From Lampris incognitus (Eukaryota > Chordata > Actinopteri > Lampriformes > Lampridae): a stretch of 64,000 nt of DNA. Positions 12,596 through 64,000 of this stretch are shown here, in pieces; position 1 is the first letter of the stretch; every line of letters starts with the position of its first letter. Position numbers and translations under genes: made by a program. The notes beneath the pieces were generated by a model. The model saw nothing but the letters and a program-made list of their open reading frames with translations, made no database searches and was not told where the DNA came from. The DNA lies in the NCBI RefSeq assembly GCF_029633865.1, contig NC_079230.1, positions 28,894,009 through 28,958,008 of the forward strand. The letters are read 5' to 3'.

Positions 12596-12705
12596 CGACA
12601 ACCATAATTACACTGTGAAATACAACTAAAAAGGACTTAATTCCTCTCTTCTCCAACATGGAAGTGTGTCTCAGATCCTGAGCACCCAGCGTATGTCAGG
12701 TGCCA

Positions 12706-26945: not shown

Positions 26946-26949
26946 CTCT

Positions 26950-30213: not shown

Positions 30214-30530
30214 TACCCTCAAGGACGACCGCTGGGTCGACAAACTGCCTTGGGTCATGCTTGGGCTCAGGACGGCCCCCAAGGAGGACCTCCAGTCCTC
30301 CTCCGCCGAACTGGTCTACGGACAGCCACTTCGGGTCCCGGGGGATTTCCTTCCCACCGCCACAGCTCCCTAGTCCGCCAGCTGCCAAAGGACTGCGCTG
30401 CAGGAGGAAGCCAGGGCTTTTGCACCAGTCCCCACTTCTCAGCATGGCGGCTCTCAGTCGTCCTATGTCCCCACGGAGCTGCGGTCGGCAGAGTATGTTT
30501 TCATCCGATGGAACCTCTCGACCAATCCAT
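30214..30530 (+). mobile_element. Gypsy integrase fragment, plus strand
   Basis: Contains WVDKLPWVMLGLRTAPKEDL and LVYGQPLRVPGDFLP, from the C-terminal part of integrase of the same gypsy lineage as the neighbouring minus-strand fossil. It lies in the opposite orientation to that fossil. Fragment only. Confidence 0.75.
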
Positions 30531-33500: not shown

Positions 33501-33960
33501 CACTCTAGTTGCAGTCGAACACCCGAGCGCCGATACCACGTAGTAGCATTTAGTAGCATCATCTGTTATTTTGTGGATAGCAAACCGCGCTTCCGCCTGG
33601 GCGAACCATGTCGTTGCCGATCACTCCCAGAACTCTGGCAATTTGAGAGAAACCGCGTTGATTTCGTCAACCATGTTCGTTTGAAAGATTGTCTCTGATA
33701 ACTACCAAGAGACAAACCTCGGGGTGACCAGTGTAGAGGAGCTCAATCAGGAGTCGTGACAACTTTCTCTTTCGGCTACACAACGTGCACCATTTATTCC
33801 TTCACCATAACAACAACAGCAAAAACCCGCGCAGCGGAAGTGTGTCACTGTAAACACGAACCGAGACAACAGCAGCTGTAAACAAACGTTCCTACTAGCT
33901 CAATAAGGGGAATTATGTATCCCTATAACCACTATACATGTCCATTTCCATTACCAACAC
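30531..33960 (-). mobile_element. Ty3/gypsy fossil without chromodomain: gag to integrase plus 5' LTR
   Basis: Minus-strand order: a probable 5' LTR (about 33740-33960, starting TGTTGGTAATGG); gag (about 32900-33675, FFLASQQ, LRQLPAQVRAAFANTR); aspartic protease (FLCDTGAQRSVVPA, near 32880); reverse transcriptase ([31 protein letters not shown]; about 31740-32450); RNase H (TTDASDYSVGAV; 31200-31600); integrase (CVECQRSK, SSDRGPQFTSAFW; 30540-31100). Gag shows no CCHC knuckle that I can find. The 3' end and 3' LTR are missing here. It is broken at several points (about five or more) and is of intermediate age. Confidence 0.85.
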
Positions 33961-37736: not shown

Positions 37737-38139
37737 GGAAAGTTTGTGAACCCTTTACAATTTTCTGCATACACGTATGACCTGAAACAGCATCGGATTA
37801 TCACACAAGTCCAAAAAGTAGATAAAGAGAACCCAATTAAACAAATGAGACAAAAATATTATACTTGGTCATTTATTCATTGAGGATAATGATCCAATAT
37901 TACATTATCTGTGAGTGGCACAAGTGTGTGAACCGCTAGGATTAGCAGTTAATTTGAAGGTGAAATTAAGAGTCAGGCGTTTTCAATCATTGGGATGACA
38001 ATCAGGTGCGAGTGGGCGCCCTGTTTTATTTAAAGAACAGGGATCTATCAAAGTCTGATCTTCACAACACATGTTTGTGGAAGTGTATCATGGCAAGAAC
38101 AAAGGAGGTTTCTGAGGACCTCAGAAAAAAAGCGTTGTT
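37737..38139 (+). mobile_element. Tc1/mariner-like transposon, left end and transposase start
   Basis: A TA target dinucleotide (37735-37736) is followed by CAGTGGTGCTGGAAAGTTTG, the terminal inverted repeat of a common fish Tc1-like family. About 360 bp of 5' sequence precede the start of the transposase (MARTKEVSEDLRKK, near 38090). The element is cut at 38140 by the LTR of a gypsy fossil. Its matching right end (reverse-complement of 37806-37935) appears at 43545-43683 and in every unit of the downstream array. Confidence 0.85.
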
Positions 38140-42957: not shown

Positions 42958-42968
42958 CCTCTCGAGTG

Positions 42969-43496
42969 TCGTGTTTCCATAGCGACGTAGGAACCGCCGG
43001 GATCATGAGTTGACGTCAACATTTTGCGACAGCTTTCACCGCGACGTAATTATCCCATCCAGGTGGCGGGAAATGTCGAGGTAAATCGTCTCGTTTCTCC
43101 TGGAGGACTCGAGCCCCCGCTGAACCTCGTCGGTGGCGTAGTCAGCCAACAAAGCCTGCACCTCCTCGTCTGTCCGTTTCTCGGCTGATTTCTCCATTTC
43201 GCTTGATCGAAATTAAGTTTGCTACCACACAGCTTGGTTGCTGGCTTATACAATTGCGCTTGTTGAACACCGAAGTAGAAGGCTGGTTGCTTCCGACGTT
43301 CAACCAATCGGCGTCGAGCCCCTCCCAGCAGGTTTTCAGGGCCGCTCAGAAGTACCGACCCCAGAGCAGGGACTAGAGACGCTCCCTTAAAAGTCCCAGT
43401 AAGAGTTCCGGTCAGGGGTAGTTCCTCTAGTGGAAACACCAGCAAAGCTGCCGGCCCCCTAAAAGGTTCGGGTAGCTCCGCTGGTGGAAAATGGCC
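42969..43496 (-). mobile_element. PIF/Harbinger-type transposon end (in every unit)
   Basis: The element's terminus GGCCATTTTCCACCAGCGG ends at 43496 and is followed by TTA (43497-43499), the 3-bp target typical of PIF/Harbinger. About 300 bp inside, a Myb/SANT-like protein begins. The other end is missing at the unit boundary. It appears to have inserted into the Tc1-like element, whose sequence continues to the right of 43497. The same segment recurs every 2,373 bp. Confidence 0.55.
43036..43197 (-). pseudogene. Truncated Myb/SANT-like domain start, 53 codons
   Basis: The minus-strand frame starts MEKSAEKRTDEEVQALLADY and continues through TIYLDISRHLDG before a stop. The W-less RTDEEVQALL...DEVQ...RNETIYLDISRHL pattern is the first half of the Myb/SANT-like domain found in the DNA-binding partner protein of PIF/Harbinger transposons and related vertebrate proteins. 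The second half of the domain is missing, so this is a fragment, repeated in all units. A 131-codon frame overlapping it in another phase (43050-43445) is not the meaningful one. Confidence 0.5.
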
Positions 43497-43499
43497 TTA

Positions 43500-43683
43500 T
43501 GAGTTGTGTTGACAGGTTGCTTCACAAGGGGCGTCACTCCAGATACTGAAAGCAAAGGTTCACCTACTTTTGCCACTCACAGATGTGAAATATTGGATCA
43601 TTTTGCTCAATAAATGAATGAGCAAGTATCATATTTTTGTCTCATTTGTTTAATTGGGTTTTCTTCATCTACTTTTAGGACTC
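43500..43683 (+). mobile_element. Tc1-like transposon right end (in every unit)
   Basis: TTCACAAGGGGCGTCACTCC, then GATACTGAAAGCAAAGGTTC, is the end of the transposase gene, and the following 130 bp are the reverse complement of the left inverted repeat at 37806-37935 (AACCCAATTAAACAAATGAG read backwards). The outermost part of the repeat is missing because a SINE begins at about 43684. It is probably the other end of the element starting at 37737. Confidence 0.8.
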
Positions 43684-44065
43684 GTCGCCGGACCGAATCC
43701 CCGTGTTACGCCCGCCTTGATTGGTGTCGCTAAAGCCACAATTGGCCGTGTGTGCGGGTGTGAAGCCGGATGTGAGTATGTGTCGAGGTGGCTGCAGTAG
43801 CGCCTCCTCTGATCGGTCGGGGCGCCTGTTCGGGGGAGAGGGAGAACTGGAGGAATAGCGTGATCCTGCCACGCGCTACGTCGCCCTGGCGAAACGCCTC
43901 ACTGTCAGGGGAACGAAGCGGCTGGCGACTCCACATGCGTCGGAGGAGGCATGTGGTAGTCTGCAGCCCTCCCCGCAATGGCAGAGGGGATGGAGCAGAA
44001 ACCGGGAGGGATCGGAAGAGTGGGGTAATTGGTCCCATATAATTGGGGAGACAAAGAGGAACGAA
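43684..44065 (+). mobile_element. tRNA-derived SINE (in every unit)
   Basis: Begins at a B-box-like GGACCGAATCC (43690-43700), so most of the tRNA head is missing. The well-preserved body follows (GCCTCCTCTGATCGGTCGGG, GCGTGATCCTGCCACGCGCT, GGCATGTGGTAGTCTGCAGC) and ends AATTGGGGAGACAAAGAGG. A fragment of the same family lies at 25970-26092. The copy is dead, as its promoter is incomplete. Confidence 0.75.
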
Positions 44066-44154
44066 ACCCCGATGATGAATTAAGGGACGCAAGATCATTA
44101 ACACGCCGAATGTCGTAAAGTTTGTGTTTTCCTGCCTTAACGGGAACCATATTG

Positions 44155-44167
44155 TTTTTCTTTTGAC
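44155..44167 (-). terminator. snRNA 3' box of U1 (unit 1)
   Basis: GTCAAAAGAAAAA on the minus strand begins 7 nt after the RNA 3' end. It resembles the vertebrate snRNA 3' box GTTTN(0-3)AAARNNAGA, which directs Integrator-dependent 3' processing. The same box lies at the same position in the other units. Confidence 0.6.
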
Positions 44168-44174
44168 ATTTAAT

Positions 44175-44338
44175 CAGGGGAGAGCGCGAACGCAGTCCCC
44201 CACTACCAGAAATTATGCAGTCGAGATTCCCACGTTTGGGGAATTCGCACAGGTCAGCACAACCGGAGTGCAATGGTCAAGCCTCGCCGTGGGTGAACCA
44301 CCTTCTTGATCATGGTGTCTCCCCTGCCAGGTAAGTAT
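44175..44338 (-). ncRNA. U1 spliceosomal snRNA, unit 1
   Basis: The minus-strand RNA is 164 nt, the standard vertebrate length. It begins AUACUUACCUG, the intact 5' splice-site recognition sequence. Stem-loop I carries GAUCAAGAAG (human GAUCACGAAG) for U1-70K. Stem-loop II has the U1A loop AUUGCACUCC intact. The Sm site AAUUUCUGG matches the form I recall from Xenopus. Stem-loop IV (GGGGGACUGCGUUCGCGCUC) is intact. Stem III shows a paired change relative to human (AUUCCC/GGGAAU instead of UUUCCC/GGGAAA). Helix H pairing (GCAGG with human CCUGC) is weakened, as the partner reads UGUGC here. U1 pairs with 5' splice sites and, by blocking early polyadenylation, protects long transcripts. A PSE-like element and a 3' box flank the gene, as expected for a pol II snRNA gene. 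Confidence 0.93.
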
Positions 44339-44380
44339 GAACCCCAGCCATCGCACAGAGGATCTGATTCTGACACACAT

Positions 44381-44397
44381 CTATCTGTATGACGGTG
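44381..44397 (-). promoter_or_regulatory. PSE-like promoter element of U1 (unit 1)
   Basis: CACCGTCATACAGATAG on the minus strand, at -59 to -43 from the RNA start, fits the place and wording of the vertebrate proximal sequence element (TCACCNTNAC...AANAG class) bound by SNAPc. No TATA box follows, as expected for a pol II U1 gene. It is present in all units. No clear octamer was found further upstream. Confidence 0.6.
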
Positions 44398-44466
44398 CCA
44401 CGGCATCAAGGAAAGCGACTGCTTTGTCCTCACAGAAATCAAGGTTTGTTTCTTTTAACATGTAAA

Positions 44467-44605
44467 CGGGGGAGAGCGCGAACGCAGTCCCCCACTACCG
44501 GAAATGATGCAGTCCAGAGTCTATAACATTTGGGGAATTGACCTTTCGCAAAGTCAGTTACCGTTGCTATGACCGTCAAGCCTTTCAGAACTATCCAGGA
44601 AGTAG
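44467..44605 (-). pseudogene. Decayed U1 snRNA copy (in every unit)
   Basis: The minus strand keeps the U1 3' third nearly unchanged (GGUAGUGGGGGACUGCGUUC, then GCGCUCUCCCC), recognisable middle parts (GGCUUGAC, UUUGCGAAAG, AAUUCCCCAAAUG) and a 5' end like ACUUCCUGG. Stem-loop I is missing, the U1A loop is lost and the Sm site reads CAUUUCCGG. It is 139 nt against 164. A 3' box (GTTAAAAGAAACAAA, 44445-44459) follows its 3' end after the same 7-nt spacing as in the intact gene. This shows that it was duplicated as a gene, not retroposed. It recurs every 2,373 bp. Confidence 0.75.
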
Positions 44606-44674
44606 CCGGAAAACACCAAAACATGAAGGAAGAAATCAGCGCATTGTGTGGTTAAAAGTAACAGTAGTAATACA

Positions 44675-44962
44675 TTAGCTATCAATAATAGCTAGTAGCA
44701 AGCTTAGCTTGGAGCAGACAGGTATTTTTGTTGATTTTGGATGGATTAAGCTGGCCATGGGGTCTGCTATACTGTGACATCTATTGACGACATTGCGCTT
44801 CTTGCGTTCTGGGTTTCGGGAAGGGAAAGAAAATGACACCCCCTCCAAACTTTTCACATATCTAGTATCCGATCTGCAGATCCCATAGGCACACCGTTTC
44901 AGCATTTTGTTGTGCGTTTGAAAGCTTGACGGACCGTTGCTAAGGTCGGATTGGACAAGCAC
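44675..44962 (-). pseudogene. THAP-like zinc-finger fragment (in every unit)
   Basis: A 95-codon frame contains MLKRCAYGICRSDTRYVKSL and IHPKSTKIPVCSK, the layout of the N-terminal THAP domain in fish transposon-derived proteins. The C2CH cysteines are at residues 24, 29 and 83, but the final histidine is replaced by leucine (residue 86) and the conserved tryptophan is absent. No downstream domain is visible. Probably a DNA-transposon remnant rather than a working gene. Confidence 0.5.
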
Positions 44963-45341
44963 CGTTCTGGGGAGGTACTTTGCGAAAGCTCAATTGAACT
45001 CGAGGCGTTCTAGAGGAGTGTAAAGTCTACCTCGACTGTACACAGTTACGGCTCCTGATCGGTCAAAAGTCTACGGTGAGTGAACGCTCTAGACTAATCG
45101 GAAGCCGAAAGAGCCGATTGGAGCGTACCAGTCATAGGTCCCATATGAGACGAGCATCAAAGCTTATCAAGAGGGAGAAGAGTGGTTTTCAAAGTTTACG
45201 GCGATGTTTGTTCTTCGATGATTCGTTTGAAGGAAAGGTGTTAGCTATAGCTATTAGCGATTTTCCATAGGAACAACTACACGAACTCACAGGCTGGCGC
45301 GAATTACAAGTGGAACTACCCCGTAGGCGCCCTGTCGAGAG
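44963..45341. other. Spacer of the array unit
   Basis: No gene recognised. Part of it (44920-45003) resembles the decayed U1 copy read in the opposite direction (GCTTGACGG, then TACTTTGCGAAAG and TCAATT). Small frames here show no known domain. Confidence 0.4.
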
Positions 45342-46547
45342 TCGTGTTTCCATAGCGACGTAGGAACCGCCGGGATCATGAGTTGACGTCAACATTTTGC
45401 GACAGCTTTCACCGCGACGTAATTATCCCATCCAGGTGGCGGGAAATGTCGAGGTAAATCGTCTCGTTTCTCCTGGAGGACTCGAGCCCCCGCTGAACCT
45501 CGTCGGTGGCGTAGTCAGCCAACAAAGCCTGCACCTCCTCGTCTGTCCGTTTCTCGGCTGATTTCTCCATTTCGCTTGATCGAAATTAAGTTTGCTACCA
45601 CACAGCTTGGTTGCTGGCTTATACAATTGCGCTTGTTGAACACCGAAGTAGAAGGCTGGTTGCTTCCGACGTTCAACCAATCGGCGTCGAGCCCCTCCCA
45701 GCAGGTTTTCAGGGCCGCTCAGAAGTACCGACCCCAGAGCAGGGACTAGAGACGCTCCCTTAAAAGTCCCAGTAAGAGTTCCGGTCAGGGGTAGTTCCTC
45801 TAGTGGAAACACCAGCAAAGCTGCCGGCCCCCTAAAAGGTTCGGGTAGCTCCGCTGGTGGAAAATGGCCTTATGAGTTGTGTTGACAGGTTGCTTCACAA
45901 GGGGCGTCACTCCAGATACTGAAAGCAAAGGTTCACCTACTTTTGCCACTCACAGATGTGAAATATTGGATCATTTTGCTCAATAAATGAATGAGCAAGT
46001 ATCATATTTTTGTCTCATTTGTTTAATTGGGTTTTCTTCATCTACTTTTAGGACTCGTCGCCGGACCGAATCCCCGTGTTACGCCCGCCTTGATTGGTGT
46101 CGCTAAAGCCACAATTGGCCGTGTGTGCGGGTGTGAAGCCGGATGTGAGTATGTGTCGAGGTGGCTGCAGTAGCGCCTCCTCTGATCGGTCGGGGCGCCT
46201 GTTCGGGGGAGAGGGAGAACTGGAGGAATAGCGTGATCCTGCCACGCGCTACGTCGCCCTGGCGAAACGCCTCACTGTCAGGGGAACGAAGCGGCTGGCG
46301 ACTCCACATGCGTCGGAGGAGGCATGTGGTAGTCTGCAGCCCTCCCCGCAATGGCAGAGGGGATGGAGCAGAAACCGGGAGGGATCGGAAGAGTGGGGTA
46401 ATTGGTCCCATATAATTGGGGAGACAAAGAGGAACGAAACCCCGATGATGAATTAAGGGACGCAAGATCATTAACACGCCGAATGTCGTAAAGTTTGTGT
46501 TTTCCTGCCTTAACGGGAACCATATTGTTTTTCTTTTGACATTTAAT

Positions 46548-46711
46548 CAGGGGAGAGCGCGAACGCAGTCCCCCACTACCAGAAATTATACAGTCGAGAT
46601 TCCCACGTTTGGGGAATTCGCACAGGTCAGCACAACCGGAGTGCAATGGTCAAGCCTCGCCGTGGGTGAACCACCTTCTTGATCATGGTGTCTCCCCTGC
46701 CAGGTAAGTAT
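46548..46711 (-). ncRNA. U1 snRNA, unit 2
   Basis: As unit 1, with one private change: RNA position 122 C to U, just before the Sm site. Promoter element and 3' box are unchanged. Confidence 0.92.
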
Positions 46712-48920
46712 GAACCCCAGCCATCGCACAGAGGATCTGATTCTGACACACATCTATCTGTATGACGGTGCCACGGCATCAAGTAAAGCGACTGCTTTGT
46801 CCTCACAGAAATCAAGGTTTGTTTCTTTTAACATGTAAACGGGGGAGAGCGCGAACGCAGTCCCCCACTACCGGAAATGATGCAGTCCAGAGTCTATAAC
46901 ATTTGGGGAATTGACCTTTCGCAAAGTCAGTTACCGTTGCTATGACCGTCAAGCCTTTCAGAACTATCCAGGAAGTAGCCGGAAAACACCAAAACATGAA
47001 GGAAGAAATCAGCGCATTGTGTGGTTAAAAGTAACAGTAGTAATACATTAGCTATCAATAATAGCTAGTAGCAAGCTTAGCTTGGAGCAGACAGGTATTT
47101 TTGTTGATTTTGGATGGATTAAGCTGGCCATGGGGTCTGCTATACTGTGACATCTATTGACGACATTGCGCTTCTTGCGTTCTGGGTTTCGGGAAGGGAA
47201 AGAAAATGACACCCCCTCCAAACTTTTCACATATCTAGTATCCGATCTGCAGATCCCATAGGCACACCGTTTCAGCATTTTGTTGTGCGTTTGAAAGCTT
47301 GACGGACCGTTGCTAAGGTCGGATTGGACAAGCACCGTTCTGGGGAGGTACTTTGCGAAAGCTCAATTGAACTCGAGGCGTTCTAGAGGAGTGTAAAGTC
47401 TACCTCGACTGTACACAGTTACGGCTCCTGATCGGTCAAAAGTCTACGGTGAGTGAACGCTCTAGACTAATCGGAAGCCGAAAGAGCCGATTGGAGCGTA
47501 CCAGTCATAGGTCCCATATGAGACGAGCATCAAAGCTTATCAAGAGGGAGAAGAGTGGTTTTCAAAGTTTACGGCGATGTTTGTTCTTCGATGATTCGTT
47601 TGAAGGAAAGGTGTTAGCTATAGCTATTAGCGATTTTCCATAGGAACAACTACACGAACTCACAGGCTGGCGCGAATTACAAGTGGAACTACCCCGTAGG
47701 CGCCCTGTCGAGAGTCGTGTTTCCATAGCGACGTAGGAACCGCCGGGATCATGAGTTGACGTCAACATTTTGCGACAGCTTTCACCGCGACGTAATTATC
47801 CCATCCAGGTGGCGGGAAATGTCGAGGTAAATCGTCTCGTTTCTCCTGGAGGACTCGAGCCCCCGCTGAACCTCGTCGGTGGCGTAGTCAGCCAACAAAG
47901 CCTGCACCTCCTCGTCTGTCCGTTTCTCGGCTGATTTCTCCATTTCGCTTGATCGAAATTAAGTTTGCTACCACACAGCTTGGTTGCTGGCTTATACAAT
48001 TGCGCTTGTTGAACACCGAAGTAGAAGGCTGGTTGCTTCCGACGTTCAACCAATCGGCGTCGAGCCCCTCCCAGCAGGTTTTCAGGGCCGCTCAGAAGTA
48101 CCGACCCCAGAGCAGGGACTAGAGACGCTCCCTTAAAAGTCCCAGTAAGAGTTCCGGTCAGGGGTAGTTCCTCTAGTGGAAACACCAGCAAAGCTGCCGG
48201 CCCCCTAAAAGGTTCGGGTAGCTCCGCTGGTGGAAAATGGCCTTATGAGTTGTGTTGACAGGTTGCTTCACAAGGGGCGTCACTCCAGATACTGAAAGCA
48301 AAGGTTCACCTACTTTTGCCACTCACAGATGTGAAATATTGGATCATTTTGCTCAATAAATGAATGAGCAAGTATCATATTTTTGTCTCATTTGTTTAAT
48401 TGGGTTTTCTTCATCTACTTTTAGGACTCGTCGCCGGACCGAATCCCCGTGTTACGCCCGCCTTGATTGGTGTCGCTAAAGCCACAATTGGCCGTGTGTG
48501 CGGGTGTGAAGCCGGATGTGAGTATGTGTCGAGGTGGCTGCAGTAGCGCCTCCTCTGATCGGTCGGGGCGCCTGTTCGGGGGAGAGGGAGAACTGGAGGA
48601 ATAGCGTGATCCTGCCACGCGCTACGTCGCCCTGGCGAAACGCCTCACTGTCAGGGGAACGAAGCGGCTGGCGACTCCACATGCGTCGGAGGAGGCATGT
48701 GGTAGTCTGCAGCCCTCCCCGCAATGGCAGAGGGGATGGAGCAGAAACCGGGAGGGATCGGAAGAGTGGGGTAATTGGTCCCATATAATTGGGGAGACAA
48801 AGAGGAACGAAACCCCGATGATGAATTAAGGGACGCAAGATCATTAACACGCCGAATGTCGTAAAGTTTGTGTTTTCCTGCCTTAACGGGAACCATATTG
48901 TTTTTCTTTTGACATTTAAT

Positions 48921-49084
48921 CAGGGGAGAGCGCGAACGCAGTCCCCCACTACCAGAAATTATGCAGTCGAGATTCCCACGTTTGGGGAATTCGCACCGGT
49001 CAGCACAACCGGAGTGCAATGGTCAAGCCTCGCCGTGGGTGAACCACCTTCTTGATCATGGTGTCTCCCCTGCCAGGTAAGTAT
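48921..49084 (-). ncRNA. U1 snRNA, unit 3
   Basis: As unit 1, with one private change: RNA position 88 U to G, between stem-loop II and helix H. Confidence 0.92.
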
Positions 49085-51293
49085 GAACCCCAGCCATCGC
49101 ACAGAGGATCTGATTCTGACACACATCTATCTGTATGACGGTGCCACGGCATCAAGTAAAGCGACTGCTTTGTCCTCACAGAAATCAAGGTTTGTTTCTT
49201 TTAACATGTAAACGGGGGAGAGCGCGAACGCAGTCCCCCACTACCGGAAATGATGCAGTCCAGAGTCTATAACATTTGGGGAATTGACCTTTCGCAAAGT
49301 CAGTTACCGTTGCTATGACCGTCAAGCCTTTCAGAACTATCCAGGAAGTAGCCGGAAAACACCAAAACATGAAGGAAGAAATCAGCGCATTGTGTGGTTA
49401 AAAGTAACAGTAGTAATACATTAGCTATCAATAATAGCTAGTAGCAAGCTTAGCTTGGAGCAGACAGGTATTTTTGTTGATTTTGGATGGATTAAGCTGG
49501 CCATGGGGTCTGCTATACTGTGACATCTATTGACGACATTGCGCTTCTTGCGTTCTGGGTTTCGGGAAGGGAAAGAAAATGACACCCCCTCCAAACTTTT
49601 CACATATCTAGTATCCGATCTGCAGATCCCATAGGCACACCGTTTCAGCATTTTGTTGTGCGTTTGAAAGCTTGACGGACCGTTGCTAAGGTCGGATTGG
49701 ACAAGCACCGTTCTGGGGAGGTACTTTGCGAAAGCTCAATTGAACTCGAGGCGTTCTAGAGGAGTGTAAAGTCTACCTCGACTGTACACAGTTACGGCTC
49801 CTGATCGGTCAAAAGTCTACGGTGAGTGAACGCTCTAGACTAATCGGAAGCCGAAAGAGCCGATTGGAGCGTACCAGTCATAGGTCCCATATGAGACGAG
49901 CATCAAAGCTTATCAAGAGGAAGAAGAGTGGTTTTCAAAGTTTACGGCGATGTTTGTTCTTCGATGATTCGTTTGAAGGAAAGGTGTTAGCTATAGCTAT
50001 TAGCGATTTTCCATAGGAACAACTACACGAACTCACAGGCTGGCGCGAATTACAAGTGGAACTACCCCGTAGTCGCCCTGTCGAGAGTCGTGTTTCCATA
50101 GCGACGTAGGAACCGCCGGGATCATGAGTTGACGTCAACATTTTGCGACAGCTTTCACCGCGACGTAATTATCCCATCCAGGTGGCGGGAAATGTCGAGG
50201 TAAATCGTCTCGTTTCTCCTGGAGGACTCGAGCCCCCGCTGAACCTCGTCGGTGGCGTAGTCAGCCAACAAAGCCTGCACCTCCTCGTCTGTCCGTTTCT
50301 CGGCTGATTTCTCCATTTCGCTTGATCGAAATTAAGTTTGCTACCACACAGCTTGGTTGCTGGCTTATACAATTGCGCTTGTTGAACACCGAAGTAGAAG
50401 GCTGGTTGCTTCCGACGTTCAACCAATCGGCGTCGAGCCCCTCCCAGCAGGTTTTCAGGGCCGCTCAGAAGTACCGACCCCAGAGCAGGGACTAGAGACG
50501 CTCCCTTAAAAGTCCCAGTAAGAGTTCCGGTCAGGGGTAGTTCCTCTAGTGGAAACACCAGCAAAGCTGCCGGCCCCCTAAAAGGTTCGGGTAGCTCCGC
50601 TGGTGGAAAATGGCCTTATGAGTTGTGTTGACAGGTTGCTTCACAAGGGGCGTCACTCCAGATACTGAAAGCAAAGGTTCACCTACTTTTGCCACTCACA
50701 GATGTGAAATATTGGATCATTTTGCTCAATAAATGAATGAGCAAGTATCATATTTTTGTCTCATTTGTTTAATTGGGTTTTCTTCATCTACTTTTAGGAC
50801 TCGTCGCCGGACCGAATCCCCGTGTTACCCCCGCCTTGATTGGTGTCGCTAAAGCCACAATTGGCCGTGTGTGCGGGTGTGAAGCCGGATGTGAGTATGT
50901 GTCGAGGTGGCTGCAGTAGCGCCTCCTCTGATCGGTCGGGGCGCCTGTTCGGGGGAGAGGGAGAACTGGAGGAATAGCGTGATCCTGCCACGCGCTACGT
51001 CGCCCTGGCGAAACGCCTCACTGTCAGGGGAACGAAGCGGCTGGCGACTCCACATGCGTCGGAGGAGGCATGTGGTAGTCTGCAGCCCTCCCCGCAATGG
51101 CAGAGGGGATGGAGCAGAAACCGGGAGGGATCGGAAGAGTGGGGTAATTGGTCCCATATAATTGGGGAGACAAAGAGGAACGAAACCCCGATGATGAATT
51201 AAGGGACGCAAGATTATTAACACGCCGAATGTCGTAAAGTTTGTGTTTTCCTGCCTTAACGGGAACCATATTGTTTTTCTTTTGACATTTAAT

Positions 51294-51457
51294 CAGGGGA
51301 GAGCGCGAACGCAGTCCCCCGCTACCAGAAATTATGCAGTCGAGATTCCCACGTTTGGGGAATTCGCACAGGTCAGCACAACCGGAGTGCAATGGTCAAG
51401 CCTCGCCGTGGGTGAACCACCTTCTTGATCATGGTGTCTCCCCTGCCAGGTAAGTAT
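51294..51457 (-). ncRNA. U1 snRNA, unit 4
   Basis: As unit 1 except RNA position 137 U to C, just after the Sm site. The change is shared with units 5 and 6. Confidence 0.92.
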
Positions 51458-53666
51458 GAACCCCAGCCATCGCACAGAGGAGCTGATTCTGACACACATC
51501 TATCTGTATGACGGTGCCACGGCATCAAGTAAAGCGACTGCTTTGTCCTCACAGAAATCAAGGTTTGTTTCTTTTAACATGTAAACGGGGGAGAGCGCGA
51601 ACGCAGTCCCCCACTACCGGAAATGATGCAGTCCAGAGTCTATAACATTTGGGGAATTGACCTTTCGCAAAGTCAGTTACCGTTGCTATGACCGTCAAGC
51701 CTTTCAGAACTATCCAGGAAGTAGCCGGAAAACACCAAAACATGAAGGAAGAAATCAGCGCATTGTGTGGTTAAAAGTAACAGTAGTAATACATTAGCTA
51801 TCAATAATAGCTAGTAGCAAGCTTAGCTTGGAGCAGACAGGTATTTTTGTTGATTTTGGATGGATTAAGCTGGCCATGGGGTCTGCTATACTGTGACATC
51901 TATTGACGACATTGCGCTTCTTGCGTTCTGGCTTTCGGGAAGGGAAAGAAAATGACACCCCCTCCAAACTTTTCACATATCTAGTATCCGATCTGCAGAT
52001 CCCATAGGCACACCGTTTCAGCATTTTGTTGTGTGTTTGAAAGCTTGACGGACCGTTGCTAAGGTCGGATTGGACAAGCACCGTTCTGGGGAGGTACTTT
52101 GCGAAAGCTCAATTGAACTCGAGGCGTTCTAGAGGAGTGTAAAGTCTACCTCGGCTGTACACAGTTACGGCTCCTGATCGGTCTAAAGTCTACGGTGAGT
52201 GAACGCTCTAGACTAATCGGAAGCCGAAAGAGCCGATTGGAGCGTACCAGTCATAGGTCCCAGATGAGACGAGCATCAAAGCTTATCAAGAGGAAGAAGA
52301 GTGGTTTTCAAAGTTTACGGCGATGTTTGTTCTTCGATGATTCGTTTGAAGGAAAAGTGTTAGCTATAGCTATTAGCTATTTTCCATAGGAACAACTACA
52401 CGAACTCACAGGCTGGCGCGAATTACAAGTGGAACTACCCCGTAGTCGCCCTGTCGAGAGTCGTGTTTCCATAGCGACGTAGGAACCGCCGGGATCATGA
52501 GTTGACGTCAACATTTTGCGACAGCTTTCACCGCGACGTAATTATCCCATCCAAGTGGCGGGAAATGTCGAGGTAAATCGTCTCGTTTCTCCTGGAGGAC
52601 TCGAGCCCCCGCTGAACCTCGTCGGTGGCGTAGTCAGCCAACAAAGCCTGCACCTCCTCGTCTGTCCGTTTCTCGGCTGATTTCTCCATTTCGCTTGATC
52701 GAAATTAAGTTTGCTACCACACAGCTTGGTTGCTGGCTTATACAATTGCGCTTGTTGAACACCGAAGTAGAAGGCTGGTTGCTTCCGACGTTCAACCAAT
52801 CGGCGTCGAGCCCCTCCCAGCAGGTTTTCAGGGCCGCTCAGAAGTACCGACCCCAGAGCAGGGACTAGAGACGCTCCCTTAAAAGTCCCAGTAAGAGTTC
52901 CGGTCAGGGGTAGTTCCTCTAGTGGAAACACCAGCAAAGCTGCCGGCCCCCTAAAAGGTTCGGGTAGCTCCGCTGGTGGAAAATGGCCTTATGAGTTGTG
53001 TTGACAGGTTGCTTCACAAGGGGCGTCACTCCAGATACTGAAAGCAAAGGTTCACCTACTTTTGCCACTCACAGATGTGAAATATTGGATCATTTTGCTC
53101 AATAAATGAATGAGCAAGTATCATATTTTTGTCTCATTTGTTTAATTGGGTTTTCTTCATCTACTTTTAGGACTCGTCGCCGGACCGAATCCCCGTGTTA
53201 CCCCCGCCTTGATTGGTGTCGCTAAAGCCACAATTGGCCGTGTGTGCGGGTGTGAAGCCGGATGTGAGTATGTGTCGAGGTGGCTGCAGTAGCGCCTCCT
53301 CTGATCGGTCGGGGCGCCTGTTCGGGGGAGAGGGAGAACTGGAGGAATAGCGTGATCCTGCCACGCGCTACGTCGCCCTGGCGAAACGCCTCACTGTCAG
53401 GGGAACGAAGCGGCTGGCGACTCCACATGCGTCGGAGGAGGCATGTGGTAGTCTGCAGCCCTCCCCGCAATGGCAGAGGGGATGGAGCAGAAACCGGGAG
53501 GGATCGGAAGAGTGGGGTAATTGGTCCCATATAATTGGGGAGACAAAGAGGAACGAAACCCCGATGATGAATTAAGGGACGCAAGATTATTAACACGCCG
53601 AATGTCGTAAAGTTTGTGTTTTCCTGCCTTAACGGGAACCATATTGTTTTTCTTTTGACATTTAAT

Positions 53667-53830
53667 CAGGGGAGAGCGCGAACGCAGTCCCCCGCTACCA
53701 GAAATTATGCAGTCGAGATTCCCACGTTTGGGGAATTCGCACAGGTCAGCACAACCGGAGTGCAATGGTCAAGCCTCGCCGTGGGTGAACCACCTTCTTG
53801 ATCATGGTGTCTCCCCTGCCAGGTAAGTAT
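53667..53830 (-). ncRNA. U1 snRNA, unit 5
   Basis: Same U1 sequence as unit 4 (U137C). The surrounding unit also shares most variants with unit 4. Confidence 0.92.
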
Positions 53831-56039
53831 GAACCCCAGCCATCGCACAGAGGAGCTGATTCTGACACACATCTATCTGTATGACGGTGCCACGGCATCA
53901 AGTAAAGCGACTGCTTTGTCCTCACAGAAATCAAGGTTTGTTTCTTTTAACATGTAAACGGGGGAGAGCGCGAACGCAGTCCCCCACTACCGGAAATGAT
54001 GCAGTCCAGAGTCTATAACATTTGGGGAATTGACCTTTCGCAAAGTCAGTTACCGTTGCTATGACCGTCAAGCCTTTCAGAACTATCCAGGAAGTAGCCG
54101 GAAAACACCAAAACATGAAGGAAGAAATCAGCGCATTGTGTGGTTAAAAGTAACAGTAGTAATACATTAGCTATCAATAATAGCTAGTAGCAAGCTTAGC
54201 TTGGAGCAGACAGGTATTTTTGTTGATTTTGGATGGATTAAGCTGGCCATGGGGTCTGCTATACTGTGACATCTATTGACGACATTGCGCTTCTTGCGTT
54301 CTGGCTTTCGGGAAGGGAAAGAAAATGACACCCCCTCCAAACTTTTCACATATCTAGTATCCGATCTGCAGATCCCATAGGCACACCGTTTCAGCATTTT
54401 GTTGTGTGTTTGAAAGCTTGACGGACCGTTGCTAAGGTCGGATTGGACAAGCACCGTTCTGGGGAGGTACTTTGCGAAAGCTCAATTGAACTCGAGGCGT
54501 TCTAGAGGAGTGTAAAGTCTACCTCGGCTGTACACAGTTACGGCTCCTGATCGGTCTAAAGTCTACGGTGAGTGAACGCTCTAGACTAATCGGAAGCCGA
54601 AAGAGCCGATTGGAGCGTACCAGTCATAGGTCCCAGATGAGACGAGCATCAAAGCTTATCAAGAGGAAGAAGAGTGGTTTTCAAAGTTTACGGCGATGTT
54701 TGTTCTTCGATGATTCGTTTGAAGGAAAAGTGTTAGCTATAGCTATTAGCTATTTTCCATAGGAACAACTACACGAACTCACAGGCTGGCGCGAATTACA
54801 AGTGGAACTACCCCGTAGTCGCCCTGTCGAGAGTCGTGTTTCCATAGCGACGTAGGAACCGCCGGGATCATGAGTTGACGTCAACATTTTGCGACAGCTT
54901 TCACCGCGACGTAATTATCCCATCCAAGAGGCGGGAAATGTCGAGGTAAATCGTCTCGTTTCTCCTGGAGGACTCGAGCCCCCGCTGAACCTCGTCGGTG
55001 GCGTAGTCAGCCAACAAAGCCTGCACCTCCTCGTCTGTCCGTTTCTCGGCTGATTTCTCCATTTCGCTTGATCGAAATTAAGTTTGCTACCACACAGCTT
55101 GGTTGCTGGCTTATACAATTGCGCTTGTTGAACACCGAAGTAGAAGGCTGGTTGCTTCCGACGTTCAACCAATCGGCGTCGAGCCCCTCCCAGCAGGTTT
55201 TCAGGGCCGCTCAGAAGTACCGACCCCAGAGCAGGGACTAGAGACGCTCCCTTAAAAGTCCCAGTAAGAGTTCCGGTCAGGGGTAGTTCCTCTAGTGGAA
55301 ACACCAGCAAAGCTGCCGGCCCCCTAAAAGGTTCGGGTAGCTCCGCTGGTGGAAAATGGCCTTATGAGTTGTGTTGACAGGTTGCTTCACAAGGGGCGTC
55401 ACTCCAGATACTGAAAGCAAAGGTTCACCTACTTTTGCCACTCACAGATGTGAAATATTGGATCATTTTGCTCAATAAATGAATGAGCAAGTATCATATT
55501 TTTGTCTCATTTGTTTAATTGGGTTTTCTTCATCTACTTTTAGGACTCGTCGCCGGACCGAATCCCCGTGTTACCCCCGCCTTGATTGGTGTCGCTAAAG
55601 CCACAATTGGCCGTGTGTGCGGGTGTGAAGCCGGATGTGAGTATGTGTCGAGGTGGCTGCAGTAGCGCCTCCTCTGATCGGTCGGGGCGCCTGTTCGGGG
55701 GAGAGGGAGAACTGGAGGAATAGCGTGATCCTGCCACGCGCTACGTCGCCCTGGCGAAACGCCTCACTGTCAGGGGAACGAAGCGGCTGGCGACTCCACA
55801 TGCGTCGGAGGAGGCATGTGGTAGTCTGCAGCCCTCCCCGCAATGGCAGAGGGGATGGAGCAGAAACCGGGAGGGATCGGAAGAGTGGGGTAATTGGTCC
55901 CATATAATTGGGGAGACAAAGAGGAACGAAACCCCGATGATGAATTAAGGGACGCAAGATCATTAACACGCCGAATGTCGTAAAGTTTGTGTTTTCCTGC
56001 CTTAACGGGAACCATATTGTTTTTCTTTTGACATTTAAT

Positions 56040-56203
56040 CAGGGGAGAGCGCGAACGCAGTCCCCCGCTACCAGAAATTATGCAGTCGAGATTCCCACGT
56101 TTGGGGAATTCGCACAGGTCAGCACAACCGGAGTGCAATGGTCAAGCCTCGCCGTGGGTGAACCACCTTCTTGATCATGGTGTCTCCCCTGCCAGGTAAG
56201 TAT
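56040..56203 (-). ncRNA. U1 snRNA, unit 6
   Basis: Same U1 sequence as units 4 and 5 (U137C), but the downstream half of the unit carries the common variants. Confidence 0.92.
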
Positions 56204-58412
56204 GAACCCCAGCCATCGCACAGAGGAGCTGATTCTGACACACATCTATCTGTATGACGGTGCCACGGCATCAAGTAAAGCGACTGCTTTGTCCTCACAG
56301 AAATCAAGGTTTGTTTCTTTTAACATGTAAACGGGGGAGAGCGCGAACGCAGTCCCCCACTACCGGAAATGATGCAGTCCAGAGTCTATAACATTTGGGG
56401 AATTGACCTTTCGCAAAGTCAGTTACCGTTGCTATGACCGTCAAGCCTTTCAGAACTATCCAGGAAGTAGCCGGAAAACACCAAAACATGAAGGAAGAAA
56501 TCAGCGCATTGTGTGGTTAAAAGTAACAGTAGTAATACATTAGCTATCAATAATAGCTAGTAGCAAGCTTAGCTTGGAGCAGACAGGTATTTTTGTTGAT
56601 TTTGGATGGATTAAGCTGGCCATGGGGTCTGCTATACTGTGACATCTATTGACGACATTGCGCTTCTTGCGTTCTGGGTTTCGGGAAGGGAAAGAAAATG
56701 ACACCCCCTCCAAACTTTTCACATATCTAGTATCCGATCTGCAGATCCCATAGGCACACCGTTTCAGCATTTTGTTGTGCGTTTGAAAGCTTGACGGACC
56801 GTTGCTAAGGTCGGATTGGACAAGCACCGTTCTGGGGAGGTACTTTGCGAAAGCTCAATTGAACTCGAGGCGTTCTAGAGGAGTGTAAAGTCTACCTCGA
56901 CTGTACACAGTTACGGCTCCTGATCGGTCAAAAGTCTACGGTGAGTGAACGCTCTAGACTAATCGGAAGCCGAAAGAGCCGATTGGAGCGTACCAGTCAT
57001 AGGTCCCATATGAGACGAGCATCAAAGCTTATCAAGAGGGAGAAGAGTGGTTTTCAAAGTTTACGGCGATGTTTGTTCTTCGATGATTCGTTTGAAGGAA
57101 AGGTGTTAGCTATAGCTATTAGCGATTTTCCATAGGAACAACTACACGAACTCACAGGCTGGCGCGAATTACAAGTGGAACTACCCCGTAGGCGCCCTGT
57201 CGAGAGTCGTGTTTCCATAGCGACGTAGGAACCGCCGGGATCATGAGTTGACGTCAACATTTTGCGACAGCTTTCACCGCGACGTAATTATCCCATCCAG
57301 GTGGCGGGAAATGTCGAGGTAAATCGTCTCGTTTCTCCTGGAGGACTCGAGCCCCCGCTGAACCTCGTCGGTGGCGTAGTCAGCCAACAAAGCCTGCACC
57401 TCCTCGTCTGTCCGTTTCTCGGCTGATTTCTCCATTTCGCTTGATCGAAATTAAGTTTGCTACCACACAGCTTGGTTGCTGGCTTATACAATTGCGCTTG
57501 TTGAACACCGAAGTAGAAGGCTGGTTGCTTCCGACGTTCAACCAATCGGCGTCGAGCCCCTCCCAGCAGGTTTTCAGGGCCGCTCAGAAGTACCGACCCC
57601 AGAGCAGGGACTAGAGACGCTCCCTTAAAAGTCCCAGTAAGAGTTCCGGTCAGGGGTAGTTCCTCTAGTGGAAACACCAGCAAAGCTGCCGGCCCCCTAA
57701 AAGGTTCGGGTAGCTCCGCTGGTGGAAAATGGCCTTATGAGTTGTGTTGACAGGTTGCTTCACAAGGGGCGTCACTCCAGATACTGAAAGCAAAGGTTCA
57801 CCTACTTTTGCCACTCACAGATGTGAAATATTGGATCATTTTGCTCAATAAATGAATGAGCAAGTATCATATTTTTGTCTCATTTGTTTAATTGGGTTTT
57901 CTTCATCTACTTTTAGGACTCGTCGCCGGACCGAATCCCCGTGTTACCCCCGCCTTGATTGGTGTCGCTAAAGCCACAATTGGCCGTGTGTGCGGGTGTG
58001 AAGCCGGATGTGAGTATGTGTCGAGGTGGCTGCAGTAGCGCCTCCTCTGATCGGTCGGGGCGCCTGTTCGGGGGAGAGGGAGAACTGGAGGAATAGCGTG
58101 ATCCTGCCACGCGCTACGTCGCCCTGGCGAAACGCCTCACTGTCAGGGGAACGAAGCGGCTGGCGACTCCACATGCGTCGGAGGAGGCATGTGGTAGTCT
58201 GCAGCCCTCCCCGCAATGGCAGAGGGGATGGAGCAGAAACCGGGAGGGATCGGAAGAGTGGGGTAATTGGTCCCATATAATTGGGGAGACAAAGAGGAAC
58301 GAAACCCCGATGATGAATTAAGGGACGCAAGATTATTAACACGCCGAATGTCGTAAAGTTTGTGTTTTCCTGCCTTAACGGGAACCATATTGTTTTTCTT
58401 TTGACATTTAAT

Positions 58413-58576
58413 CAGGGGAGAGCGCGAACGCAGTCCCCCACTACCAGAAATTATGCAGTCGAGATTCCCACGTTTGGGGAATTCGCACAGGTCAGCACAA
58501 CCGGAGTGCAATGGTCAAGCCTCGCCGTGGGTGAACCACCTTCTTGATCATGGTGTCTCCCCTGCCAGGTAAGTAT
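58413..58576 (-). ncRNA. U1 snRNA, unit 7
   Basis: By eye identical to the U1 of unit 1, although parts of the surrounding unit carry the unit 4-6 variants. Confidence 0.92.
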
Positions 58577-60785
58577 GAACCCCAGCCATCGCACAGAGGA
58601 GCTGATTCTGACACACATCTATCTGTATGACGGTGCCACGGCATCAAGTAAAGCGACTGCTTTGTCCTCACAGAAATCAAGGTTTGTTTCTTTTAACATG
58701 TAAACGGGGGAGAGCGCGAACGCAGTCCCCCACTACCGGAAATGATGCAGTCCAGAGTCTATAACATTTGGGGAATTGACCTTTCGCAAAGTCAGTTACC
58801 GTTGCTATGACCGTCAAGCCTTTCAGAACTATCCAGGAAGTAGCCGGAAAACACCAAAACATGAAGGAAGAAATCAGCGCATTGTGTGGTTAAAAGTAAC
58901 AGTAGTAATACATTAGCTATCAATAATAGCTAGTAGCAAGCTTAGCTTGGAGCAGACAGGTATTTTTGTTGATTTTGGATGGATTAAGCTGGCCATGGGG
59001 TCTGCTATACTGTGACATCTATTGACGACATTGCGCTTCTTGCGTTCTGGGTTTCGGGAAGGGAAAGAAAATGACACCCCCTCCAAACTTTTCACATATC
59101 TAGTATCCGATCTGCAGATCCCATAGGCACACCGTTTCAGCATTTTGTTGTGCGTTTGAAAGCTTGACGGACCGTTGCTAAGGTCGGATTGGACAAGCAC
59201 CGTTCTGGGGAGGTACTTTGCGAAAGCTCAATTGAACTCGAGGCGTTCTAGAGGAGTGTAAAGTCTACCTCGACTGTACACAGTTACGGCTCCTGATCGG
59301 TCAAAAGTCTACGGTGAGTGAACGCTCTAGACTAATCGGAAGCCGAAAGAGCCGATTGGAGCGTACCAGTCATAGGTCCCATATGAGACGAGCATCAAAG
59401 CTTATCAAGAGGGAGAAGAGTGGTTTTCAAAGTTTACGGCGATGTTTGTTCTTCGATGATTCGTTTGAAGGAAAGGTGTTAGCTATAGCTATTAGCGATT
59501 TTCCATAGGAACAACTACACGAACTCACAGGCTGGCGCGAATTACAAGTGGAACTACCCCGTAGGCGCCCTGTCGAGAGTCGTGTTTCCATAGCGACGTA
59601 GGAACCGCCGGGATCATGAGTTGACGTCAACATTTTGCGACAGCTTTCACCGCGACGTAATTATCCCATCCAGGTGGCGGGAAATGTCGAGGTAAATCGT
59701 CTCGTTTCTCCTGGAGGACTCGAGCCCCCGCTGAACCTCGTCGGTGGCGTAGTCAGCCAACAAAGCCTGCACCTCCTCGTCTGTCCGTTTCTCGGCTGAT
59801 TTCTCCATTTCGCTTGATCGAAATTAAGTTTGCTACCACACAGCTTGGTTGCTGGCTTATACAATTGCGCTTGTTGAACACCGAAGTAGAAGGCTGGTTG
59901 CTTCCGACGTTCAACCAATCGGCGTCGAGCCCCTCCCAGCAGGTTTTCAGGGCCGCTCAGAAGTACCGACCCCAGAGCAGGGACTAGAGACGCTCCCTTA
60001 AAAGTCCCAGTAAGAGTTCCGGTCAGGGGTAGTTCCTCTAGTGGAAACACCAGCAAAGCTGCCGGCCCCCTAAAAGGTTCGGGTAGCTCCGCTGGTGGAA
60101 AATGGCCTTATGAGTTGTGTTGACAGGTTGCTTCACAAGGGGCGTCACTCCAGATACTGAAAGCAAAGGTTCACCTACTTTTGCCACTCACAGATGTGAA
60201 ATATTGGATCATTTTGCTCAATAAATGAATGAGCAAGTATCATATTTTTGTCTCATTTGTTTAATTGGGTTTTCTTCATCTACTTTTAGGACTCGTCGCC
60301 GGACCGAATCCCCGTGTTACGCCCGCCTTGATTGGTGTCGCTAAAGCCACAATTGGCCGTGTGTGCGGGTGTGAAGCCGGATGTGAGTATGTGTCGAGGT
60401 GGCTGCAGTAGCGCCTCCTCTGATCGGTCGGGGCGCCTGTTCGGGGGAGAGGGAGAACTGGAGGAATAGCGTGATCCTGCCACGCGCTACGTCGCCCTGG
60501 CGAAACGCCTCACTGTCAGGGGAACGAAGCGGCTGGCGACTCCACATGCGTCGGAGGAGGCATGTGGTAGTCTGCAGCCCTCCCCGCAATGGCAGAGGGG
60601 ATGGAGCAGAAACCGGGAGGGATCGGAAGAGTGGGGTAATTGGTCCCATATAATTGGGGAGACAAAGAGGAACGAAACCCCGATGATGAATTAAGGGACG
60701 CAAGATCATTAACACGCCGAATGTCGTAAAGTTTGTGTTTTCCTGCCTTAACGGGAACCATATTGTTTTTCTTTTGACATTTAAT

Positions 60786-60949
60786 CAGGGGAGAGCGCGA
60801 ACGCAGTCCCCCACTACCAGAAATTATGCAGTCGAGATTCCCACGTTTGGGGAATTCGCACAGGTCAGCACAACCGGAGTGCAATGGTCAAGCCTCGCCG
60901 TGGGTGAACCACCTTCTTGATCGTGGTGTCTCCCCTGCCAGGTAAGTAT
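60786..60949 (-). ncRNA. U1 snRNA, unit 8
   Basis: As unit 1 with one private change: RNA position 27 U to C, in the upper part of stem-loop I next to the U1-70K loop. Confidence 0.92.
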
Positions 60950-63158
60950 GAACCCCAGCCATCGCACAGAGGAGCTGATTCTGACACACATCTATCTGTA
61001 TGACGGTGCCACGGCATCAAGTAAAGCGACTGCTTTGTCCTCACAGAAATCAAGGTTTGTTTCTTTTAACATGTAAACGGGGGAGAGCGCGAACGCAGTC
61101 CCCCACTACCGGAAATGATGCAGTCCAGAGTCTATAACATTTGGGGAATTGACCTTTCGCAAAGTCAGTTACCGTTGCTATGACCGTCAAGCCTTTCAGA
61201 ACTATCCAGGAAGTAGCCGGAAAACACCAAAACATGAAGGAAGAAATCAGCGCATTGTGTGGTTAAAAGTAACAGTAGTAATACATTAGCTATCAATAAT
61301 AGCTAGTAGCAAGCTTAGCTTGGAGCAGACAGGTATTTTTGTTGATTTTGGATGGATTAAGCTGGCCATGGGGTCTGCTATACTGTGACATCTATTGACG
61401 ACATTGCGCTTCTTGCGTTCTGGGTTTCGGGAAGGGAAAGAAAATGACACCCCCTCCAAACTTTTCACATATCTAGTATCCGATCTGCAGATCCCATAGG
61501 CACACCGTTTCAGCATTTTGTTGTGCGTTTGAAAGCTTGACGGACCGTTGCTAAGGTCGGATTGGACAAGCACCGTTCTGGGGAGGTACTTTGCGAAAGC
61601 TCAATTGAACTCGAGGCGTTCTAGAGGAGTGTAAAGTCTACCTCGACTGTACACAGTTACGGCTCCTGATCGGTCAAAAGTCTACGGTGAGTGAACGCTC
61701 TAGACTAATCGGAAGCCGAAAGAGCCGATTGGAGCGTACCAGTCATAGGTCCCATATGAGACGAGCATCAAAGCTTATCAAGAGGGAGAAGAGTGGTTTT
61801 CAAAGTTTACGGCGATGTTTGTTCTTCGATGATTCGTTTGAAGGAAAGGTGTTAGCTATAGCTATTAGCGATTTTCCATAGGAACAACTACACGAACTCA
61901 CAGGCTGGCGCGAATTACAAGTGGAACTACCCCGTAGGCGCCCTGTCGAGAGTCGTGTTTCCATAGCGACGTAGGAACCGCCGGGATCATGAGTTGACGT
62001 CAACATTTTGCGACAGCTTTCACCGCGACGTAATTATCCCATCCAGGTGGCGGGAAATGTCGAGGTAAATCGTCTCGTTTCTCCTGGAGGACTCGAGCCC
62101 CCGCTGAACCTCGTCGGTGGCGTAGTCAGCCAACAAAGCCTGCACCTCCTCGTCTGTCCGTTTCTCGGCTGATTTCTCCATTTCGCTTGATCGAAATTAA
62201 GTTTGCTACCACACAGCTTGGTTGCTGGCTTATACAATTGCGCTTGTTGAACACCGAAGTAGAAGGCTGGTTGCTTCCGACGTTCAACCAATCGGCGTCG
62301 AGCCCCTCCCAGCAGGTTTTCAGGGCCGCTCAGAAGTACCGACCCCAGAGCAGGGACTAGAGACGCTCCCTTAAAAGTCCCAGTAAGAGTTCCGGTCAGG
62401 GGTAGTTCCTCTAGTGGAAACACCAGCAAAGCTGCCGGCCCCCTAAAAGGTTCGGGTAGCTCCGCTGGTGGAAAATGGCCTTATGAGTTGTGTTGACAGG
62501 TTGCTTCACAAGGGGCGTCACTCCAGATACTGAAAGCAAAGGTTCACCTACTTTTGCCACTCACAGATGTGAAATATTGGATCATTTTGCTCAATAAATG
62601 AATGAGCAAGTATCATATTTTTGTCTCATTTGTTTAATTGGGTTTTCTTCATCTACTTTTAGGACTCGTCGCCGGACCGAATCCCCGTGTTACGCCCGCC
62701 TTGATTGGTGTCGCTAAAGCCACAATTGGCCGTGTGTGCGGGTGTGAAGCCGGATGTGAGTATGTGTCGAGGTGGCTGCAGTAGCGCCTCCTCTGATCGG
62801 TCGGGGCGCCTGTTCGGGGGAGAGGGAGAACTGGAGGAATAGCGTGATCCTGCCACGCGCTACGTCGCCCTGGCGAAACGCCTCACTGTCAGGGGAACGA
62901 AGCGGCTGGCGACTCCACATGCGTCGGAGGAGGCATGTGGTAGTCTGCAGCCCTCCCCGCAATGGCAGAGGGGATGGAGCAGAAACCGGGAGGGATCGGA
63001 AGAGTGGGGTAATTGGTCCCATATAATTGGGGAGACAAAGAGGAACGAAACCCCGATGATGAATTAAGGGACGCAAGATCATTAACACGCCGAATGTCGT
63101 AAAGTTTGTGTTTTCCTGCCTTAACGGGAACCATATTGTTTTTCTTTTGACATTTAAT

Positions 63159-63322
63159 CAGGGGAGAGCGCGAACGCAGTCCCCCACTACCAGAAATTAT
63201 GCAGTCGAGATTCCCACGTTTGGGGAATTCGCACAGGTCAGCACAACCGGAGTGCAATGGTCAAGCCTCGCCGTGGGTGAACCACCTTCTTGATCATGGT
63301 GTCTTCCCTGCCAGGTAAGTAT
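63159..63322 (-). ncRNA. U1 snRNA, unit 9
   Basis: As unit 1 with one private change: RNA position 18 G to A, at the base of stem-loop I. The unit itself is cut by the end of the window, but the RNA, PSE-like element and 3' box are complete. Confidence 0.92.
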
Positions 63323-64000
63323 GAACCCCAGCCATCGCACAGAGGATCTGATTCTGACACACATCTATCTGTATGACGGTGCCACGGCATCAAGTAAAGC
63401 GACTGCTTTGTCCTCACAGAAATCAAGGTTTGTTTCTTTTAACATGTAAACGGGGGAGAGCGCGAACGCAGTCCCCCACTACCGGAAATGATGCAGTCCA
63501 GAGTCTATAACATTTGGGGAATTGACCTTTCGCAAAGTCAGTTACCGTTGCTATGACCGTCAAGCCTTTCAGAACTATCCAGGAAGTAGCCGGAAAACAC
63601 CAAAACATGAAGGAAGAAATCAGCGCATTGTGTGGTTAAAAGTAACAGTAGTAATACATTAGCTATCAATAATAGCTAGTAGCAAGCTTAGCTTGGAGCA
63701 GACAGGTATTTTTGTTGATTTTGGATGGATTAAGCTGGCCATGGGGTCTGCTATACTGTGACATCTATTGACGACATTGCGCTTCTTGCGTTCTGGGTTT
63801 CGGGAAGGGAAAGAAAATGACACCCCCTCCAAACTTTTCACATATCTAGTATCCGATCTGCAGATCCCATAGGCACACCGTTTCAGCATTTTGTTGTGCG
63901 TTTGAAAGCTTGACGGACCGTTGCTAAGGTCGGATTGGACAAGCACCGTTCTGGGGAGGTACTTTGCGAAAGCTCAATTGAACTCGAGGCGTTCTAGAGG

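Follow-up and report, generated by a model that had tools for sequence, protein, structure and literature searches.

The window, which is the whole stretch of 64,000 nucleotides analysed here, ends within a tandem array of U1 snRNA genes, very probably functional ones, of a teleost fish. Each 2,373-bp unit holds one complete U1 gene that, like others of its class, would be transcribed by RNA polymerase II from an snRNA-type promoter, with a 3' box that would direct 3'-end formation. U1 uses its ACUUACCUG end to pair with 5' splice sites, its loops I and II are bound by U1-70K and U1A, and the Sm ring sits at AAUUUCUGG. An array of such genes would supply the U1 snRNP in bulk, and unequal exchange together with gene conversion would keep its units alike. 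The locus is ordinary in kind, clustered U1 genes being already known in fishes and frogs, and it matters because a vertebrate U1 array is here sequenced in full over many units, free of indels and with its chromosomal edge included. Three useful details are added here: a U1 relic in each unit, an array edge that cuts into an LTR element, and sequence variants that can be used as tags of individual units in studies of homogenisation and of copy-specific expression.

Nine U1 genes at a fixed interval

All nine genes lie on the minus strand and are 164 nt long, with starts at 44175 + 2373n (n = 0 to 8), as located by Rfam cmscan and by the self-identity of the sequence at this period. Units are numbered from 0, and positions are those of the window.

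42956..64000, minus strand: tandem array of 2,373-bp U1 units (period self-identity, column table, edge alignment)
44175..44338, minus strand: U1 gene of unit 0 (RF00003, 162.4 bits)
46548..46711, minus strand: U1 gene of unit 1, nt 122 C to U (RF00003, 160.1 bits)
48921..49084, minus strand: U1 gene of unit 2, nt 88 U to G (RF00003, 158.5 bits)
51294..51457, minus strand: U1 gene of unit 3, nt 137 U to C (RF00003, 161.4 bits)
53667..53830, minus strand: U1 gene of unit 4, nt 137 U to C (RF00003, 161.4 bits)
56040..56203, minus strand: U1 gene of unit 5, nt 137 U to C (RF00003, 161.4 bits)
58413..58576, minus strand: U1 gene of unit 6 (RF00003, 162.4 bits)
60786..60949, minus strand: U1 gene of unit 7, nt 27 U to C (RF00003, 162.8 bits)
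63159..63322, minus strand: U1 gene of unit 8, nt 18 G to A (RF00003, 156.9 bits)

Firstly, every copy is complete. When the whole window was searched with cmscan, all nine matched the U1 family RF00003 over model positions 1-166 of 166, none being truncated, with scores of 156.9-162.8 bits (E 4.6e-42 to 2.2e-40) that place each 164-nt segment far above the gathering score of 69.5 bits. The same search returned no other RNA family at its Rfam gathering score, and ARAGORN detected no tRNA genes in the window. A 41-base U1 pattern had no matches in collections of prokaryote and virus contigs, as expected for such collections.

Secondly, the spacing is constant. Eight full units, counted from 42,958, and 2,059 bp of a ninth align with zero indels. 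Measured in 250-bp bins, self-identity at an offset of 2,373 was 0.22-0.30 across bins 38,001 to 42,501 and 0.36 in the edge-containing bin (42,751), then 0.98-1.0 in those from 43,001 to 61,501, the last testable. The left boundary of the array is at about 42,956, and on its right side it extends past the end of the window. The preliminary description, which had proposed nine 164-nt U1 genes in one orientation at 2,373-bp spacing within an array running off the window, and had staked this in part on how a U1 covariance model would score the segments, is borne out on each of these points. It gave no strand for the genes and mentioned neither the relic in each unit nor the LTR cut at the edge, both described below.

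Thirdly, the parts of the RNA that make the known contacts are the same throughout. The 12-nt end that pairs with the 5' splice site, the loop I decamer, the U1A site of loop II and the Sm site are identical in 9/9 copies, as are 30 nt of the 3' flank. The Sm site in the array reads AAUUUCUGG; that of human U1 is AAUUUGUGG.

Fourthly, the differences from human U1, for which a working reference sequence was used, follow the structure of the RNA. Over 164 positions the array consensus differs from this sequence at 15, six of which form three two-sided compensatory pairs (50/89, 62/77 and 95/113). Against the same reference, one-sided changes at nt 44, 61 and 88 keep a standard pair, those at nt 22, 33, 105, 130 and 157 have no partner in the model, and nt 45 is the sole pair-breaking difference. 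Standard pairs are found at 44 of the 46 model pairs for which the consensus has both bases, the exceptions being 19-45 (A-A) and 145-156 (U-U). Such a compensatory pattern is a mark of selection on RNA structure. Hence the array most likely descends from a U1 gene that worked, in a line under RNA-level selection.

The U1 relic and the flanking signals

A second, decayed U1 sequence accompanies the gene in each unit, in the same orientation, and the sequences beside the gene include stretches resembling the signals of snRNA genes.

46840..46956, minus strand: degenerate U1 relic, approximately nt 54-164, upstream of the unit-1 gene (Rfam, alignment, column table)
46753..46771, minus strand: weak candidate PSE, -60 to -42 of the unit-1 gene (position fits; five mismatches)
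44153..44167, minus strand: 3' box-like stretch, +8 to +22 of the unit-0 gene (identical in 9/9; judged by eye)

When one unit was searched permissively, with E values up to 5 allowed, the relic matched the Rfam model at 46,840-46,933 with 35.5 bits (E 9.2e-7), which falls short of the gathering score, and nothing in that unit beyond the gene and the relic matched any Rfam family. Alignment to the gene stretches the relic to about 46,956, covering gene nt 54-164, and continues into the 3' flank, where 16 of the first 20 nt match in unit 1; the alignment score was 131.6, against a best of 26.2 among 200 shuffles. The relic recurs at multiples of 2373 in either direction in every unit, contains no variable columns, and has its 3' end about 130 bp upstream of the start of the live gene. 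Its preservation is uneven. Stem-loop IV is nearly intact (30 matches, one mismatch), nt 94-133 have 32 matches, eight mismatches and two gap positions (Fisher P 0.019 for the comparison of these two parts, which was made post hoc), and nt 54-93 are the least preserved, with 29 matches, six mismatches and 15 gap positions. The simplest history, and a probable one, is that two U1 genes lay close together, one decayed into the relic, and the pair was then amplified as a unit. The 3' end of the relic may have been preserved through local conversion by the live gene. Conversion in the opposite direction was considered as a source of the variants among the units. It does not account for those at nt 122 and nt 137, where the relic has the consensus base of the array and not the variant, and nt 18 and 27 both lie outside the relic.

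In snRNA genes transcribed by RNA polymerase II, a PSE is expected near -55, and a DSE comprising an octamer and a Staf site near -200. The relic presumably sits where the distal element would be expected. With the motifs used for both distal sites, which divergent fish elements could escape, the 450 bp upstream of the gene yielded no octamer with at most one mismatch in any of the eight units searched (units 0-7), and no Staf-type site with at most three mismatches was found upstream of the unit-1 gene. Both a 3' box and a PSE-like element had been ascribed to each gene, and the two have fared differently. The 3' box stands, as GTCAAAAGAAAAACA occurs at +8 to +22 in 9/9 copies and resembles the consensus, as judged by eye. 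The PSE has weaker support from the sequence: the unit-1 candidate has five mismatches to the consensus, a match equalled by 7 of the 21 other sites listed in the 450 bp upstream of that gene. The 3' box-like stretch is the better-supported putative signal in comparison with the candidate promoter elements.

Possible role and origin of the array

Tandem organisation is familiar among snRNA genes. The embryonic U1 genes of Xenopus laevis form a 1.8-kb unit, and primate RNU2 is a tandem array with a unit of about 6 kb, concerted evolution and a remodelled junction to the flanking DNA. RNU2 encodes U2, whereas the genes described here encode U1, and what the two have in common is a tandem array in concerted evolution whose junction with the flanking DNA has been remodelled.

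Fornaini et al. 2023 report BLAST counts of about 20 U1 copies on X. tropicalis chromosome 1, and of 11 on 1L and about 35 on 1S in X. laevis (PMC10361878), resembling the present locus in having multi-copy U1 at one chromosomal site. In studies of hake and Plectorhinchus, U1, U2 and U5 genes are described as clustered in these and other fishes (PMC4696792, PMC3464664). This is likewise a clustering of snRNA genes, although the linkage in those fishes is of U1 with U2 and of U2 with U5, whereas this unit contains only U1 and a U1 relic as far as Rfam families go. As a further likeness, an incomplete U6 and a degenerate U2 lie within the U2-U1 spacer of hake (PMC4696792). The subject of a toadfish paper is U2 (PMC3544641). 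According to Wilson and Postlethwait 2024, who cite a preprint, maternal-specific U1 and U6 genes occupy in large numbers a heterochromatic block on zebrafish chromosome 4 (PMC11075544), and the likeness lies in the presence of many U1 genes at one place in a teleost genome. The zebrafish block is reported to show oocyte expression and heterochromatin, with U6, 5S and tRNA genes also in the region, whereas in this window U1 is the only family that Rfam finds at its gathering scores.

It is possible, if some way from probable, that the array is itself a maternal locus, active in the oocyte and early embryo, with somatic U1 coming from genes elsewhere. Eggs would then be loaded with U1 from the array, which would later be shut off, making this a special case of a functional array rather than an exclusive alternative to it. 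Three observations favour such a role: the many maternal-specific U1 and U6 genes on zebrafish chromosome 4, as cited above; the developmental switch in Xenopus U1 isoforms, by which oocytes and embryos differ from adults, as reported in PMC4291461; and the divergence of the array U1 from human U1 at 15/164 positions. However, these 15 differences may be ordinary divergence, the comparison being with human U1. Were the array maternal, it would extend the oocyte-type U1 arrangement of zebrafish to another major teleost branch, and oocyte-type identity is the one question that would raise the array's interest. A more detailed form of the idea is speculative and rather unlikely as a whole. It posits that an early acanthomorph teleost has a U1 locus dedicated to the oocyte. 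The copies at this locus, differing at pairing positions in stem-loops I and II and in the junction helix, would give the egg a mix of isoforms, and the relic, its near-perfect stem-loop IV kept by conversion from the live gene, would fill the usual position of the distal promoter element.

Variation among the genes bears on whether the copies are used at all. U1 contains five of the 22 variable columns, against 1.5 expected by length (the gene being 6.9% of the unit), an excess with a binomial P of 0.015, or 0.010 minus two edge columns, in a test made post hoc. This excess was given no weight, because a scan that looked for clusters over all stretches of 215 bp was non-significant (P 0.063). 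The safe statement is that single U1 copies are conserved no better than the spacer, as expected for redundant copies. Among the five variants, nt 18 G to A and nt 88 U to G each break a pair, and these two count against the reading of the array as functional genes; nt 27 U to C turns a U-G pair into C-G, nt 122 C to U turns G-C into G-U, and nt 137 U to C, in units 3-5, affects an unpaired position. A U1-derived satellite, its copies mostly silent and passively multiplied by unequal crossing over, would fit variation in U1 that is not below that of the spacer, octamer and Staf sites that were not found, a PSE candidate unexceptional among upstream sites, and a relic that is dead U1 sequence carried along in each unit. 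However, the contact sites examined are intact in 9/9 copies, and the compensatory changes place the founder in a line under selection at the RNA level, making a satellite improbable.

The units are arranged head-to-tail and are highly similar, with only 22 of 2,373 columns variable over the nine (the ninth being partial), two of which (42,961 and 42,967) are edge positions in the first unit. With the first 12 columns excluded as belonging to the edge, any two of the eight full units differ at 1 to 15 positions, and any two of all nine at 1 to 8 when only the stretch common to them is compared. No two units are identical, the smallest difference being the single one between units 3 and 4. These two also share a block of variants, and units 0, 1, 2, 5, 7 and 8 each have private variants. 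The absence of indels, the small number of variable columns, the block shared by units 3 and 4 and the lack of identical units together make up the pattern expected under concerted evolution. That the assembler repeated one or two real units is highly improbable: homogeneity and a 200-N gap elsewhere in the assembly (25,024-25,223, outside the array) might suggest it, but all the units differ in the private and shared ways just described, and there are no N runs inside the array.

The left edge and the surrounding sequence

The array adjoins an LTR element on its left, and pieces of repeats lie within its unit.

38140..42959, plus strand: Ty3/gypsy-type LTR element adjoining the array (LTR alignment, Pfam matches)
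43557..43685, no strand assigned: repeat piece in the unit, 87.7% identical to 37934-37805
43942..44059, no strand assigned: repeat piece in the unit, 84.7% identical to 26081-25965

The 5' LTR runs from 38140 to about 38562, an end read by eye, and what remains of the 3' LTR is 32 bp at 42928-42959, identical to the 5' LTR at 28 of 32 positions, after which the array begins. Matches to the Pfam integrase core, H2C2 (zinc-binding) and SH3 domains in 41465-42982 are the basis on which the element is read as Ty3/gypsy-type. Array-like sequence begins at 42,956, overlapping the 3' LTR by four bases, GCCC. That the array cuts the LTR suggests a junction of the end-joining type.

Both repeat pieces, of which we take that at 43942..44059 to be SINE-like, match sequence elsewhere in the window, and hence at least those pieces are not peculiar to the array. 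The view that this was a tandem U1 array of a known kind, made distinctive by its load of repeats, holds in its first part and is weakened in its second, at least two of the repeat pieces having matches outside the array. A 53-aa stretch of reading frame in the unit, considered as a transposon-associated DNA-binding domain, was rejected, having no Pfam match up to E 5.

Further to the left, an unbroken reading frame for endosialin (CD248a), whose relationships suggest that the host is a teleost close to the acanthomorph base, lies within 5,599-8,169 on the minus strand. Among the best 120 of 744 matches, the best named are those of Polymixia lowei (68% identity), Centroberyx gerrardi (69%) and Myripristis murdjan (67%). 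A tree built from 18 of these 120 places the protein beside Polymixia, with modest support (84/76, short of the level that the tool stars), and next to both lies a salmonid-Osmerus group.

The U1 relic

Each 2,373-bp unit of the U1 array carries, upstream of its live gene (the complete 164-nt copy), a degenerate U1 relic covering about nt 54-164, with stem-loop IV better preserved than the remainder. The relic is invariant across the nine units, whereas the live gene varies among them.

46840-46956: U1 relic, recurring every 2373 bp

Retrotransposon-like coding pieces

Several retrotransposon-like coding pieces lie on the minus strand, the first two of those listed being recognised partly by Pfam or self-match, and for the remainder by eye. 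Within the window, 27542-28087 matches 42364-41819 of the Ty3/gypsy-type LTR element adjoining the array at 66.7% identity.

26948-28087, minus: coding piece
30463-33620, minus: coding piece, with a Pfam RVT_1 match at 31707-32126
14933-16045, minus: reverse transcriptase fragment of 370 codons (Pfam RVT_1), which we take to be LINE-type

Other features left of the array

Several minisatellites occupy parts of the first 20 kb, which also contain an endosialin gene in an unbroken frame. This gene served to place the host close to early acanthomorph teleosts. The run of exactly 200 Ns, which precedes the array by some 18 kb, is presumably a scaffolding gap.

719-1295: minisatellite, 29-bp unit
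2715-3641: minisatellite, 19/31/50-bp units
5599-8169, minus: endosialin (CD248a); domains: C-type lectin, EGF
11596-11895: minisatellite, 27-bp unit
12704-14315: minisatellite, 55-bp unit
18863-19739: minisatellite, 19-bp unit
25024-25223: N run
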